From Bacilli bacterium (lineage in GTDB: Bacteria > Bacillota_I > Bacilli_A > RF39 > UBA660): a stretch of 7,270 bases of DNA. The stretch's first letter is position 1, and every line of letters begins with the position of its first letter. The notes beneath the pieces are model-generated. The model ran no database searches and had not been told where the DNA came from. It was given only the letters and a program-made list of their open reading frames with translations. The DNA is taken from contig JAFPMR010000140.1 of the NCBI GenBank assembly GCA_017411235.1, positions 1-7,270 of the forward strand, read 5' to 3'. This document shows positions 1 to 7,055 of this stretch, piece by piece. The translations under genes were made by a program, and so were the position numbers.

Positions 1-1530
1 AATTTTCTTCTCATATAACCAGAATATACGATAACCAGATTTAGTACTAATAATTACAACAGGGCTATCAGAAGTAGCAACATCAAGAATAGCCATTTCT
101 ACTTCTCCATCAAAATATCCGTTAGCATAATTTTCAGATAATTTATCTACTTTATTTGGATTAAAGTATCTTTCATATCTTTCATCCCAAGTAATGTTCA
201 TATCTCTTGTACTAATTCTATAATAAATATCAGAAACGCGTTCAGCAATAACATGAAGTGAATCATATTTCTTAGATTCAACTGAAATACTAGTAACATA
301 ATGTTTTATATCATCTCTAATTTGAATCCATGTATCTTTCTTAACTTTAGTTAAACCGAATATCATTCCACCTAAACATGCAATAGCAAGTACAACTGGT
401 AAGAACATACCAAGTAATGGACGATATGGATGCTTAGCATAACCTTTTTCATGAGTATGTTTAACTTCCCATTGAATCTTTCTAACAGGAACCCATAAAC
501 CATAAATACCTAAAGTAATAATAGTTAAGAAAGTCCATTTAATATAATTACCAAGTAATTGGAATCCCTTACCATCAAATTCCATATCTATTGTGTCATA
601 TGTAGTATGATTAACTCTCCATGAATACATTAATGTTTCACAGAAAGGAGCTAATAAACCTAAAGTAAATAAACTCAAGAAAAAGCTTAATACAGAAATA
701 CCAATATATTCCCAAGTAATACCATCAAATAATGAATAGTTTACTTTTGGTTTTCTATTGCCTTCATAATGAGTATGTTTTACTACCCATCTATTCCATT
801 GAACAGGTAAGAATAATAAGAAAATGCCTAAAGTAATAATACTAAAGAATGTCCATTTAATATAATTACCCCATAATTGTAATCCATTACCATCAAAGCA
901 TAATCTCTTACCATTAATCTTTGTATGTTTAAATCTCCAATCAAGAATAAAACACTTAGCAAAAGGAGCTCCTAAACCTAAAGTAACAACAGAAAGAACA
1001 AACCCAATAATATACCAACCAATTAATTGAATTAATTTACCATCAAATACAGATTCACCAAGTAATTCCATAGGAAGTGGCTCAGCAGCAATAGTATCAT
1101 CTGTTACTTCATCAATAATCTTTTCTTCCTTTTCAGGTTTAACGACTGGTAAAGCATCAGTAGTCTCTTTAACTGGTTCTTCTTTCTTTTCTTCTACTAC
1201 TGGAGTAGTCTCAGGAACAACTTCTTCTTTTACTTCCTGAACAGCAGGAACATCTTCCTTAACTTCTTCAACAGGAGTAGTTTCAGGAACTATTTCTTCT
1301 TTAACCTCTTCTTTAACTTCAGGTAAAGCTTTAACTTCTTTCTTCTTTGTAGTTGTTCTCTTTTTAGGTTCTTTCTTCACTACTTTTTCTTCTTTTACTT
1401 CTACTAAAGCAGTTTCTTCTTTTTTAGGAGTAGCTTTCTTTGTAGTAGTTTTCTTAGCAGTACTCTTCTTAGCAGGAGTTTTCTTTGTAGTTGTTTTTTT
1501 AGTTGTAGTTTTCTTTTCTTCTTCGTTCAT
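1..1530 (-). CDS. DUF898/YjgN-like multi-unit membrane protein with long charged N-terminal tail (3' end outside window)
   Basis: The frame is open from ATG at 1530 to the window edge, giving 510 codons without a stop. An AAGGTGG ribosome-binding site lies 7 bases upstream, which supports this start. Residues 1-150 are low complexity: Lys/Thr/Ala/Pro up to about 38, then Glu/Lys/Val/Pro with a repeated VKEE-[IV]-VPETTPV (76-87 and 100-111). Residues 162-363 hold four units, each opening with FDG (162, 212, 268, 318) and carrying a hydrophobic stretch with a TLG motif (183-185, 233-235, 289-291, 339-341). Units 2 and 4 end near KHTH. This pattern resembles the DUF898/YjgN membrane family, whose function is unknown. 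A fifth hydrophobic segment spans about 371-393, and residues 394-510 form an unrecognised polar domain that continues past the window. There is no signal peptide, so the tail is probably cytoplasmic. With five single spans the C-terminal domain would be outside, but the topology is uncertain. The DUF898 assignment is from memory of the motif, not from a search. Confidence 0.8.
   Translation of the reverse strand, partial: MNEEEKKTTTKKTTTKKTPAKKSTAKKTTTKKATPKKEETALVEVKEEKVVKKEPKKRTTTKKKEVKALPEVKEEVKEEIVPETTPVEEVKEDVPAVQEVKEEVVPETTPVVEEKKEEPVKETTDALPVVKPEKEEKIIDEVTDDTIAAEPLPMELLGESVFDGKLIQLIGWYIIGFVLSVVTLGLGAPFAKCFILDWRFKHTKINGKRLCFDGNGLQLWGNYIKWTFFSIITLGIFLLFLPVQWNRWVVKHTHYEGNRKPKVNYSLFDGITWEYIGISVLSFFLSLFTLGLLAPFCETLMYSWRVNHTTYDTIDMEFDGKGFQLLGNYIKWTFLTIITLGIYGLWVPVRKIQWEVKHTHEKGYAKHPYRPLLGMFLPVVLAIACLGGMIFGLTKVKKDTWIQIRDDIKHYVTSISVESKKYDSLHVIAERVSDIYYRISTRDMNITWDERYERYFNPNKVDKLSENYANGYFDGEVEMAILDVATSDSPVVIISTKSGYRIFWLYEKKI
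442..1047 (-). repeat. In-gene tandem duplication: two A-B membrane modules, 318-base period
   Basis: The four membrane units of the gene ending at 1530 alternate in type. Units 1 and 3 (residues 162-211 and 268-317) share VTLGLGAPF/FTLGLLAPF, and units 2 and 4 (212-267 and 318-363) share GNYIKWTF followed by IITLGI. Equivalent FDG motifs lie exactly 106 residues apart (162 to 268, 212 to 318). The DNA shows the same period: the 26 bases at 845-870 differ at one position from 527-552, and a CCTAAAGTAATAAT stretch recurs just upstream of each. This indicates duplication of a two-unit block. The second module ends about where the fifth membrane segment begins. Confidence 0.85.
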
Positions 1531-2823: not shown

Positions 2824-2835
2824 ATTCGATGTCTC

Positions 2836-2843
2836 AGGAGGGG
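2836..2843 (+). promoter_or_regulatory. Strong ribosome-binding site deciding the start at 2850
   Basis: AGGAGGGG lies 6 bases before ATG at 2850. The in-frame ATG at 2829 precedes this site and coincides with the predicted transcription start, so it is unlikely to be used. Confidence 0.85.
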
Positions 2844-2849
2844 TTTAAA

Positions 2850-3764
2850 ATGATGTATGGTTCTATGAATTTAGATACATTAAAAAGTCAATTTCATTCT
2901 CGTTCAGTATCATTTCAAGATTTTAAAAACATTACTAACGAGGACGTCGCTAGAATAAGAGAATTAATTAATGCTAAATTACCAAAAATTGAAAACACTA
3001 AAACCTATGACAGAAATCAGGGATTAGATAATTATATTAACACTCTACGTTACTTAACAAATCCTACTATCAGTCAAAAATTAAAAACATTTGATGAAAG
3101 AATACTATTTTTAATTCTATCATGTGACCCTGATTTAAATCATTACTATCGTTTCTTAGAAAGCGACATAACTCCAGCTTCTTATATAGAAGATGAAGAA
3201 AATGAAAAGAAAAAACAAGAATTAAGAAACAAGAGAAAACAAGAAATTAACTCTTATAGTACTGAGGTAAGAACCAGAACAGGTTTCTATGATAGTACAC
3301 TATTAAGATATGAAAGTTTACTACATAGAAAACTATTAAAACAAGTTGGTTTCTATAGTGATATTAAGATACCTTCATTAAAAGTTTTATTATCAAGATC
3401 CGAAGGAATCGAAAATATTAATGGAATAAGTGAAATAAATCTAGAAAGATTACAGTCAATTAAAGAAAGATGGTTAAAAGAAGCTAAAGATCCAAGTGAT
3501 CTTAACTCCCTAGCTTATAACCTTTTAAAAAGTTTTAAAGAATTGCACATATATTCAGTCGAAGAGCAAGTCTTAACTTTTATCTTAATTGCTGATCCAA
3601 ACCTAGATTTATTAAGAATTTTTGAAGAAGAATCCAACTATAAGGAAATGGAAAAAAGAGCTAAACAAGAACTTGGTTTCTATAATAAAGGCTTAATTAA
3701 GGTTGAACAACTTTATCACGATAAGTTTGAACCAAATAAAAAATTAAGCGCCTGGACAATATAA
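2850..3764 (+). CDS. Soluble protein of unknown function with internal duplication
   Basis: I do not recognise this 304-residue protein. It is polar and charged, with no signal peptide or membrane segment, so it is probably cytoplasmic. Two stretches are clearly related: residues 82-106 (DERILFLILSCDPDL, then FLESD) and 238-262 (EEQVLTFILIADPNLDLL, then FEEES). A second motif, starting GFY and continuing as a likely amphipathic helix, occurs at 145-162, 167-184 and 276-293; the first and last copies share L-x-H-x-K near their ends. Each module therefore reads as a hydrophobic helix with a DP[DN]L turn followed by a GFY helix. A highly charged Glu/Lys/Arg segment at 113-138 lengthens the linker of module 1. 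The gene has its own promoter and shares a bidirectional terminator with queA. It splits the usual queA-tgt neighbourhood, but nothing in its sequence ties it to tRNA modification. The start at 2850 is preferred over 2829 because of the ribosome-binding site. Confidence 0.85.
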   Translation: MMYGSMNLDTLKSQFHSRSVSFQDFKNITNEDVARIRELINAKLPKIENTKTYDRNQGLDNYINTLRYLTNPTISQKLKTFDERILFLILSCDPDLNHYYRFLESDITPASYIEDEENEKKKQELRNKRKQEINSYSTEVRTRTGFYDSTLLRYESLLHRKLLKQVGFYSDIKIPSLKVLLSRSEGIENINGISEINLERLQSIKERWLKEAKDPSDLNSLAYNLLKSFKELHIYSVEEQVLTFILIADPNLDLLRIFEEESNYKEMEKRAKQELGFYNKGLIKVEQLYHDKFEPNKKLSAWTI

Positions 3765-4878: not shown

Positions 4879-4883
4879 CAAAT

Positions 4884-4907
4884 AAAAAAGGAATTAAATT
4901 CCTTTTT
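4884..4907 (-). terminator. Intrinsic terminator of the rnfCD-like operon
   Basis: GGAAT (4890-4894) pairs with ATTCC (4898-4902) around a short TAA loop. The A-run at 4885-4889 and T-run at 4903-4907 can extend the stem and supply the U-tract on the minus strand. The TAA stop at 4906-4908 overlaps the structure. Confidence 0.7.
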
Positions 4908-5820
4908 ATTTACCAACAGTAAACTTAAATTTATTAAATAATGGAACTAATAAACTAGCAACCAAAATAGTAATATAAATTGCTATAAATGAATGTGATA
5001 CATTAACAAATACACCACACAACAATCCTATAATAAATGCATATAATACTCTACCAGTTCTAACTACAGGTGTAGCATTTGATAAAGATAAAACAAAAAC
5101 AATTGCAAATATAAATCCACTATTAAATAAATTTCTTAAAATATCATAAAAACCTATCTTACCAGCAAAATATAAAATACTAGCAACAACAACATATCCA
5201 AGGAATGCAATTAAAGGCATTTCTTTTTTATAATACTTATTAAATATTAAAATTAAATAACCAATTAAAGCACATAATGTACTAGTAGTTCCAATAGCAC
5301 CTATACCTTTACCTATAAATAGCAAAGAAGGTTTAGTAACAGCATCTACTAATTCTAATTCATATAGATTAGCATAACTCTTAACTCCCATTAATGCTAA
5401 AATACCAACTAAAATACACTTATATAGTGCTACTTGATTAACAGTAACCTTATTATCAATAAACTTTAATAGAACATCTACTACTACCATAATAGGAATT
5501 GTAATATAAAGTTTATGCATAGGACCAGTAACTAAATAACATAATACATTAACAAAAGGAGCTATAGAGTTGTATACACTACTCATTCCCTCTTCTTTTT
5601 TAATTACCGTATAGTAATAAATCTCAAATACATAACTTAAGAATAATACTACAATAGGAATTACAAAATATTGAGTACCAAACCAAAATGGAATAACACC
5701 TTTTTGAACAGGAACAATACCATTTTTATAATAACCAAATATAATAACTGGTAATAAACTTAATAAATAAAATAGATTAATTCCTAATATTTTATTATCT
5801 TTTAAAAACCCTTTTTTCAT
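4906..5820 (-). CDS. RnfD/NqrB-like membrane protein lacking the usual flavin motif
   Basis: This 304-residue, very hydrophobic protein has about nine or ten membrane segments (for example about 11-31, 51-71, 103-119, 168-193, 233-246, 276-297). It resembles RnfD, a membrane subunit of the Rnf ion-pumping ferredoxin:NAD oxidoreductase. Support comes from GAIGTTSTLCALIG (174-187), like the RnfD GSIGETSALAILIG block, from a C-terminal region around NATPVVRTGRVLY (248-260) at the place of MATDPVTSP, and from the RnfC-like gene 4 bases upstream. The SGAT motif whose Thr carries covalent FMN is absent; the nearest resemblance is DAVTKPS (159-165). The MATDPV motif is also degraded. It starts at ATG 5820, served by AAAGGAG (5828-5834) inside the end of the upstream gene, which suggests translational coupling. 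It may be a divergent RnfD that no longer binds flavin; its activity cannot be inferred. Confidence 0.8.
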   Translation of the reverse strand: MKKGFLKDNKILGINLFYLLSLLPVIIFGYYKNGIVPVQKGVIPFWFGTQYFVIPIVVLFLSYVFEIYYYTVIKKEEGMSSVYNSIAPFVNVLCYLVTGPMHKLYITIPIMVVVDVLLKFIDNKVTVNQVALYKCILVGILALMGVKSYANLYELELVDAVTKPSLLFIGKGIGAIGTTSTLCALIGYLILIFNKYYKKEMPLIAFLGYVVVASILYFAGKIGFYDILRNLFNSGFIFAIVFVLSLSNATPVVRTGRVLYAFIIGLLCGVFVNVSHSFIAIYITILVASLLVPLFNKFKFTVGK

Positions 5821-5824
5821 AGTC

Positions 5825-6961
5825 CTACTCCTTTATATCCTTTTCTCTATTTATTAAATTAATATTAGCTGGACATACAAAATTACAAAGTCCACATCTA
5901 ATACAATTAGGATCTAATTTCTTAGCCATAGGATTAATTCCAATAGGACATATATCTATACATTTACCACATTTAATACATTTAGATGGAATTACATCTT
6001 TATGTGGGAATATAAAGATACTTCTAATATTATCAGTAACAATTAAATTATCTATATTAGGACATTTAACTTTTCTCATAAAATTATTTAAATAAATATC
6101 TACATCATTTAAATCGTCATTAACACCTTTACGGATCATTTCACCTACATTTGACCCATATTTAGTATTAACAACAAATACTCTACTAGCACCCTCATAA
6201 CATACTGTTATATATCTTTCCCCTACAGGTAAACCATCTTTAACAGCAACAAATATCTTATATAATGCAAATGCATCTAAGAATAAAATATCTTCAAATT
6301 TATAATCATCAAAGTACTTTCTAGCTAATACTTGATTTGTATTATTAGGGAATACATCTGGAATAACTTTAAAATTAATATCAGGATAATCTTTAATAAC
6401 TTTATTAACTGCATCAACATTATTATCATCATATTTAGATAATAATAAATGAGCATTAATATTAAATCTTCTAGAAATTAAATTCATAATATCTAGTAGA
6501 TTAGTAACATTATCTTGAACTAAATAATTGCTATTAAATTGATATGGTTCAACGTCCAATGCATTAACTACTAATAGTTTGCAAGGATCTTTAAGTTTAT
6601 TAACTATTAATTTATTATCATAATCAATACCTAAATTCTCGCAAGCTTTAATCAATTCTTCTTTTTTAACATTCTCAATACTATCTAAAGCTTCTTCAGA
6701 GACAAATGCTGAATTAGTATGATCATTAACTATTCTAATAACATCATCTTTATAATCAATATCACCAGAAATAGTAGCATAAGTTTTAATACCAGCTGCA
6801 GATTCTTTTAACAACTGATTAATATAAACATAATCGCCATCATTAACGTAAACATTGTCTCCTTCTCTAGCATACACTTCAGTATACTCAGGATCTAAAT
6901 ATTCAACTTTAGATAAAGCAATCTTCTTTTCATCATTATTAAACTTATAAGTTAATTCCAT
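5825..6961 (-). CDS. RnfC-like iron-sulfur protein with degenerate FMN/NADH motifs
   Basis: The protein has 378 residues; RnfC of Bacillota is usually about 430-450. In order it shows a barrel-sandwich-like N terminus (about 29-80, with REGDNVYVNDG and SGD), an RnfC-like core with VVNALDVEPY (131-140) at the place of the usual NxxECEPY, and DGLPVGERYITV (242-253) like the GkPLxeRxvTV block. The C-terminal domain carries two complete 4Fe-4S clusters: Cys328, 331, 334, 338 and Cys353, 356, 359, 363, each CxxCxxCxxxCP. The glycine-rich GxGGAGFPT motif, the YPQGxE motif and the GGPMMG motif of RnfC cannot be found; at their places stand unrelated residues (for example NNFMRK at 292-297). The core resemblance is by eye. 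The protein is probably cytoplasmic and docked on the RnfD-like partner encoded 4 bases downstream. The start at ATG 6961 has a weak ribosome-binding site (AGTGAT) but a good promoter. Confidence 0.85.
   Translation of the reverse strand: MELTYKFNNDEKKIALSKVEYLDPEYTEVYAREGDNVYVNDGDYVYINQLLKESAAGIKTYATISGDIDYKDDVIRIVNDHTNSAFVSEEALDSIENVKKEELIKACENLGIDYDNKLIVNKLKDPCKLLVVNALDVEPYQFNSNYLVQDNVTNLLDIMNLISRRFNINAHLLLSKYDDNNVDAVNKVIKDYPDINFKVIPDVFPNNTNQVLARKYFDDYKFEDILFLDAFALYKIFVAVKDGLPVGERYITVCYEGASRVFVVNTKYGSNVGEMIRKGVNDDLNDVDIYLNNFMRKVKCPNIDNLIVTDNIRSIFIFPHKDVIPSKCIKCGKCIDICPIGINPMAKKLDPNCIRCGLCNFVCPANINLINREKDIKE
5828..5834 (-). promoter_or_regulatory. Ribosome-binding site of the RnfD-like gene, inside the RnfC-like gene
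   Basis: AAAGGAG on the minus strand lies within the last codons of the RnfC-like gene, 7 bases before ATG at 5820. This is stronger than the site of the first gene and fits coupled translation of the pair. Confidence 0.75.
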
Positions 6962-7000: not shown

Positions 7001-7029
7001 AGTATACAATATTTAATATCTAGAAACAA
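7001..7029 (-). promoter_or_regulatory. Promoter of the rnfCD-like operon
   Basis: On the minus strand, TTGTTT (7024-7029) and TATACT (7001-7006) are separated by 17 bases. It sits directly after the U-tract of the uvrC terminator and gives a leader of about 33 bases. Confidence 0.65.
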
Positions 7030-7030
7030 G

Positions 7031-7053
7031 AAAAAAAGACACTAATAAGTGTC
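7031..7053 (-). terminator. Intrinsic terminator of uvrC
   Basis: GACACT (7038-7043) and AGTGTC (7048-7053) form a 6-base stem with a 4-base loop. Seven U follow on the minus strand (A-run at 7031-7037). The hairpin begins two bases after the uvrC stop codon. Confidence 0.85.
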
Positions 7054-7055
7054 CA

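Follow-up and report, generated by a model that had tools for sequence, protein, structure and literature searches.

What can two subunits of the Rnf complex do without the rest of it? The question is raised by a 7,270-nucleotide stretch of DNA from a Bacilli bacterium (contig JAFPMR010000140.1 of assembly GCA_017411235.1; hereafter the window), in which an RnfC-like and an RnfD-like gene, referred to as C and D, lie together on the minus strand. An initial annotation, made from the letters alone, had described them as a tight two-gene module with cofactor motifs missing from both proteins, and the pair was found as described, with both frames intact and 4 bases between them in the list of open reading frames. 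We give about even chances to the reading that C and D are the RnfC and RnfD of an ancestral Rnf that were later stripped of their flavin sites and now work as an iron-sulfur (Fe-S) redox-linked pair. The features concerned are the following.

5825..6961, minus strand: C, RnfC-like protein of 378 aa; RnfC fold without the phosphate loop for flavin mononucleotide (FMN), with a C-terminal ferredoxin-type domain for two [4Fe-4S] clusters
5873..5980, minus strand: cluster-cysteine segment of C, residues 328-363 (coordinates worked out by hand from residue numbers)
4906..5820, minus strand: D, RnfD-like membrane protein of 304 aa; NqrB/RnfD fold, without the SGAT loop and with the riboflavin Asp replaced by Leu

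Against the rnfC profile TIGR01945, C scored 68.9 bits (3e-19), short of the cut-off of 245.95. In an alignment to canonical RnfC, the motif GGxGFPT was reduced to a shorter stretch, YPQGxE was replaced by FPNNTN and GGPMMG by NNFMRK. All eight cluster cysteines were in place (C328, C331, C334 and C338; C353, C356, C359 and C363). The motif N-x-x-D-x-E-P-Y, part of the former site for FMN and reduced nicotinamide adenine dinucleotide (NADH), was retained, so the pocket is not wholly erased. D scored 69 bits against PF03116, above the cut-off of 27.7, and belongs to the NQR2/RnfD/RnfE family by match and by fold; against TIGR01946 it scored 44.4 bits, the cut-off of 207.05 not being reached. 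Aligned to canonical RnfD, the SGAT loop is gapped in D, neither the riboflavin Asp nor the IGETS Glu is present, and the riboflavin-site Asn is retained. The residue roles were taken from two structure papers (PMC9588780, PMC11889175; papers are cited here and below from excerpts). The initial annotation had listed GxGGAGFPT, YPQGxE and GGPMMG as lost from C and SGAT from D, with eight cysteines kept; this was borne out, as alignments aimed at the FMN/NADH and SGAT motifs did not recover them.

A search of 5.8 billion proteins returned 104 C-like and 126 D-like matches (the best 120 of the 126 D listed). The majority of the matches listed had the same short form, at about 40-94% (C) and 42-100% (D) identity, followed by matches at about 30% and below. 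A few homologues are labelled as Rnf subunits in their source records (e.g. P0010, P0123), and such labels would seem to imply an ion pump that is absent. The closest genome relative found, recorded as 'uncultured Bacilli bacterium' (genome G001, locus L001), is 63% identical in C. Profile searches of G001 found a single C and a single D, matched none of RnfA/E, RnfB, RnfG and ApbE, and so showed no second rnf set; judging from its relatives, the window's own genome probably lacks the other rnf genes and apbE as well.

Among 146 genomes of the order, which we take to be RF39, C-like matches were found in 78 (some weak and ferredoxin-like), PF03116 in 74, RnfA/E in 15, FMN-bind in 17, ApbE in 28 and the RnfB FeS domain in 14; the other 72 had no PF03116 match. 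The 74 RnfD genomes were sorted by us into 15 full, 10 intermediate and 49 short-pair genomes, an A/E match defining the full class and locus layout and C motifs dividing the rest. Locus layout was the sole criterion for rows from G002-G008; among the intermediates, L005 and L009 reach a contig end, and the full genome G018 has a single A/E match and no RnfB match. Neither G001 nor any of the 49 short-pair genomes holds a six-subunit Rnf, as PF02508 (RnfA/E, absent from the short-pair class by definition), PF04060 (RnfB) and PF04205 (FMN-bind) gave no match in them; single absences may reflect assembly gaps. ApbE was found in 13 of the 15 full and 0 of the 49 short-pair genomes (Fisher p 8e-12, uncorrected for kinship). 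Among the matches listed from 395 genomes of the class, D matches above 110 bits occurred only within the order: 20 in all, of which 19 lie in frames of 283-313 aa and the last, from G013, in one of 485 aa. Outside it, the two strongest reached 95 and 91 bits (frames of 607 and 578 aa), and the two after them 81 and 80 bits (G443 and G478, frames of 308-310 aa).

The loss of motifs extends across the lineage. In the C alignment of 141 rows (40 canonical, 16 full-operon, 12 intermediate, 48 short-pair, the window and 24 homologues), all eight cysteines were present in every row; they are the most constant feature of C. The GG..P..K core of the FMN loop was present in 56/56 canonical and full-operon rows and its FP or YP in 11 of 12 intermediates, and the loop was absent from 71/71 informative rows of the short-pair class, the window and the homologues. 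One short-pair row, L098, is a fragment short of the loop, and another, L141, is from the same genome as L114. Homologues were thinned for each pair of alignments: to 34 of the 104 C and 32 of the 126 D matches in one, to 81 and 85 rows (window included) in a second, and to 24 and 30 rows in the one described here. In the absence of the loop, independence from NADH, as initially proposed, is likely; it is unproven because N-x-x-D-x-E-P-Y is retained. C might instead continue NAD(P)H or other nucleotide chemistry in a pocket remodelled around this motif and Asn292, with D as the membrane output. In the short-pair class 37/48 rows retain the second Glu of the motif, as do the window and 24/24 homologues, and Asn292, at the first Gly of GGPMMG, is found in 71/71 short-pair rows, where 56/56 canonical and full-operon rows have Gly. 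The FMN phosphate loop is gone, however, the Asn of the motif is present in only 23/48 short-pair rows, and we know of no precedent for flavin-free hydride transfer to an Fe-S cluster, which makes this alternative improbable.

The D alignment comprised 140 rows (35 canonical, 16 full-operon, 10 intermediate, 48 short-pair, the window and 30 homologues). The flavinylated Thr was found in 34/35 canonical, 15/16 full-operon and 5/10 intermediate rows. Its loop is a gap in all 48 short-pair rows, in the window and in all 30 homologues. The riboflavin Asp fell from 35/35 canonical and 16/16 full-operon rows to 7/10 intermediate, 13/48 short-pair and 3/30 homologue rows. The initial annotation had suggested electron delivery through the membrane. 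On this idea, electrons would pass from C by way of a flavin or other cofactor held non-covalently in D to an extracytosolic acceptor. Such a path would agree with the preserved fold of D, with the riboflavin-site Asn (37/48 short-pair rows, the window and 30/30 homologues) and with the Asp where it persists. Two-gene one-way Nqr/Rnf-like systems without the membrane-subunit Thr are described in PMC11334425, and the intermediates G013 and G096 carry an FMN-bind domain in the D frame, plus ApbE. In the window, however, riboflavin Asp, Thr loop and IGETS Glu are all missing; FMN-bind or ApbE was matched in 0/49 short-pair genomes and UbiA, over its cut-off, in 3/49; and no conserved extracytosolic redox protein was recognised beside the pair among the families checked. 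With features of both flavin sites gone and no replacement cofactor site identified in D, although no systematic search for one was made, a membrane path would be without a known carrier. The proposal is thus not supported, and we judge it unlikely. UbiA was over its cut-off in 14/146 genomes of the order, where prenylquinone synthesis looks rare; a quinone reductase was rejected on the short-pair count. An open channel through D was also rejected, the gate phenylalanines being mostly retained in the short-pair class (F338 equivalent in 42/48 rows, F342 equivalent in 35/48).

Descent was examined in a C+D tree of 88 rows, in which 47 short pairs formed one clade (support of 100 in the Shimodaira-Hasegawa-like approximate likelihood ratio test, SH-aLRT). 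Its sister group is four intermediates (100), lying within the order's own full Rnf rows, and canonical Rnf falls outside. The initial annotation had proposed testing whether the pair forms a clade with conserved motif loss, and on this tree the short pairs do form one. On the tree, four changes between the full and reduced states are required, and a single origin of all reduced pairs was rejected by 117.8 log units (p of 3e-5 in the approximately unbiased test, run under a simpler model on 40 rows of our choosing, the tested group having been named after the first tree was seen). The pattern indicates that loss of A, B and E preceded the main flavin loss; on this tree the former happened repeatedly and the latter in one lineage. 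The pair also suggests that C and D can persist on their own, and have done so repeatedly, without the other half of Rnf.

Six of the 49 short-pair genomes were read late, apart from the main alignment. The FMN loop was absent in all six, with 8/8 cysteines in the five checked. A C-only tree that included these six rows gave a short-pair clade of 50 rows (98). G043, G111 and G021 fall within the clade, and the D profile detects a D in each. G090, G108 and G128 fall outside it: one tree puts them next to the clade, and another leaves them unresolved among intermediates. None of these three yields a D by the D profile, and in G108 PF03116 matches in two pieces. In all, 45 of the 49 are in the clade, three beside it and one, G121 with fragment L098, unplaced. 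As the loop is also absent in the intermediate L009, it was perhaps lost more than once. The rows L159, L160 and L162 (G090, G108 and G128) and L009 may represent separate losses or decay.

Both genes are under purifying selection, with ratios of nonsynonymous to synonymous substitution (dN/dS) well below 1. For the most similar short-pair genome pairs among those listed, dN/dS was 0.15-0.22 for C (4 pairs) and 0.11-0.32 for D (6 pairs), in clade branches other than the window's and with dS high in several; full or intermediate pairs among those listed gave 0.07-0.25 (C) and 0.12-0.36 (D). New near-constant residues have also appeared (Asn343 in C; Tyr197 and Lys199 in D). A functionless, decaying relic is therefore very unlikely in our estimation. 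In its favour, four Rnf subunits and ApbE are gone from the lineage, 72 of the 146 genomes have no PF03116 match, three of the six late-read genomes have no D by profile, one of them with D in two pieces, and the C match in G044 is listed with internal stops, though an open 379-aa frame is present there. Set against this are the intact frames of the window, the selection on both genes, the invariant cysteines, the conserved C-D adjacency and the newly fixed residues. The claim of parallel loss under selection rather than decay, already preferred in the initial annotation, is supported across the lineage. Loss of the flavin-holding parts, with Fe-S centres and membrane partner kept across many gut bacteria of small genome size, points to a new job.

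The same figures bear on the idea that D does no more than anchor C, a ferredoxin-like donor docked at the membrane to serve some cytosolic or membrane enzyme, much as a structural role has been suggested for NqrA. The constancy of the cysteines speaks for this, as do the three genomes beside the clade that keep C with a D diverged past the D profile. The N-terminal arm of RnfD holds RnfC in the solved structure (PMC9588780), and NqrA is a relative of RnfC without cofactors (PMC12174285). D is about as constrained as C in the clade, however, and this constraint together with the new near-invariant residues is more than an anchor would need; we find the idea doubtful.

For the redox-linked pair the following course is proposed. 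Rnf would have been inherited within one order of small-genome Bacilli, losing RnfA, B, E, G and ApbE and keeping C and D; C would then have been stripped of its FMN loop and D of its flavin-site features. C would sit at the cytosolic face, held by the N-terminal arm of D as in Rnf, its two [4Fe-4S] clusters trading single electrons with a soluble Fe-S partner. The partner would most likely be ferredoxin reduced by pyruvate:ferredoxin oxidoreductase (POR). Without FMN, the usual hydride chemistry of C with NAD(H) would not be possible, and the redox state of the clusters would be passed on to D, which may respond as a redox-linked permease, gate or sensor and not as an electron wire. The analysis establishes the anatomy of the pair, its distribution in relatives, its descent, the motif loss, the selection and the predicted folds, and we infer the C-D contact, the ferredoxin partner and the output of D. 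A permease, gate or sensor is preferred because D is constrained in its own right and has a fold that, by prediction, resembles that of ammonium/urea transporters. What can be said at minimum is that the residues retained are consistent with one-electron Fe-S chemistry at the cytosolic face of a conserved membrane protein. Going further, RnfC-RnfD may be a separable module with its own function, Rnf having been cut down to the pair several times in the order and made flavin-free in one large lineage. The product would belong to the ammonium/urea-transporter fold and be driven or gated by its Fe-S centres, with one-electron input from ferredoxin controlling or powering ion or solute movement through D. 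This extended proposal is tentative and rather less than likely.

Several observations weigh against the redox-linked pair. POR, a ferredoxin source, was found in 138/146 genomes of the order, among them 69 of the 72 that lack RnfD, and the presence of the pair can therefore not be predicted from ferredoxin supply. The retained gate phenylalanines give no sign of an open channel in D. Neighbours of the C-D pairs that were identified are housekeeping genes (e.g. uvrC, queA, tgt or dnaG-rpoD-trmK), and no functional link emerged from neighbours (10 proteins compared with Pfam) or co-occurring genes. The diverged D of G090, G108 and G128 fits an anchor, and Asn292 is not universal, the six later rows having 3 Asn and 3 Gly, with one Gly row (L161) within the clade. 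Some ligand may still bind, given N-x-x-D-x-E-P-Y and the riboflavin-site Asn in the window and the riboflavin Asp in 13/48 rows.

[FeFe]-hydrogenase was found in 19/49 short-pair, 18/72 RnfD-less and 1/15 full-Rnf genomes (two fragments in that one). The pair is not a clean substitute for hydrogenase (short pair versus no RnfD, p 0.11), and a ferredoxin sink replacing it was rejected. Full Rnf and [FeFe]-hydrogenase rarely occur together (1/15 versus 19/49 short-pair, p 0.025, uncorrected for kinship). Small genomes, POR and hydrogenase have been reported for RF39 (PMC7301438), in keeping with our assignment of the order to it.

Compared with known systems, the pair is closest to Rnf (RnfABCDGE; PDB 7ZC6, 8AHX, 9ERI), sharing homologous C and D, gene order, both [4Fe-4S] cysteine sets and folds. 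It differs in the subunits and ApbE missing from G001, in the absent FMN loop, flavinylated-Thr loop and riboflavin Asp, and in scores under the TIGR01945 and TIGR01946 cut-offs. In Rnf, electrons pass from riboflavin in RnfD through the RnfC clusters and FMN to NAD+ (PMC9588780); the pair keeps both clusters of this path, without flavin features on either side. In Na+-NQR, loss of cofactors from a relative of RnfC is known for NqrA, which is without clusters too, whereas both cysteine sets are present in C; NqrB still carries FMN and riboflavin and is a ubiquinone reductase (PMC12174285). The closest two-gene systems in print, the Nqr/Rnf-like flavinylation systems (PMC8238504, PMC11334425), likewise consist of two genes with an NqrB/RnfD-fold subunit lacking the flavinylated Thr, but combine an FMN-bind subunit with an RnfD-PF00175 fusion and are flavin-based. 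Here the partner is an Fe-S RnfC, no PF00175 match was found by Pfam in C or D of the window, and neither FMN-bind protein nor ApbE was matched in G001 or the 49 short-pair genomes. Likeness to PrdC, the proline reductase-associated RnfC-like protein, is limited to a weak match of C to TIGR04481 of NCBIfam (30.3 bits, far under the cut-off of 490); PrdC acts without RnfD. D would share its fold with ammonium/urea transporters and differs from them in mostly keeping Nqr/Rnf-type gate phenylalanines. No paper describing this RnfC-RnfD pair was found among the excerpts covered by a literature search. Ion movement by RnfD/NqrB is disputed, Na+ passage through RnfD being proposed from the C. tetanomorphum structure (PMC9588780) and evidence for it not being found in A. 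woodii (PMC11889175); a natural C-D pair, without RnfA/E in its relatives and apparently flavin-free, is a direct test object.

Among the order's full Rnf loci, the FMN-bind (RnfG) domain lies in RnfD's own frame in 14/15 genomes (L118-L120, L122-L132; frames of 466-599 aa), the exception being L121 of G018, and the RnfB FeS match is in a frame of just 87-109 aa. The intermediates L133-L140, L142 and L143 are C-D pairs with the C FMN motifs and without A/E/B, spread over several separate tree lineages; they are a possible NADH-oxidising C-D module.

The initial annotation had also given the pair its own promoter and terminator. Candidates for both were seen, the promoter below the scanner threshold and the AT-rich hairpin after D weak and less clear than the uvrC terminator upstream of C.

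7001..7029, minus strand: candidate promoter TTGTTT-17-TATACT, 5' of C (by eye; sub-threshold in the scanner)
4879..4912, minus strand: weak hairpin of intrinsic-terminator type where D ends (-9 kcal/mol, z -2.17; absent from the scanner list)
7037..7054, minus strand: terminator-like hairpin after uvrC, between uvrC and C-D (scanner and folding, z -4.05)

The ribosome site of D, AAAGGAG, read by eye, overlaps the 3' end of C. The minus-strand order in the window is the end of uvrC, C, D, queA, tgt and a DUF898 gene, queA and tgt being presumed identities recognised from the sequence without a search; the plus strand carries one hypothetical gene. The DUF898 membrane protein (1-1530, minus strand) has a long N-terminal region rich in Lys, Thr and Glu. 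The hypothetical 311-aa protein (2829-3764, plus strand) has no family match over cut-off, and a relative of it (cluster f43) is found in L001 near queA and tgt.
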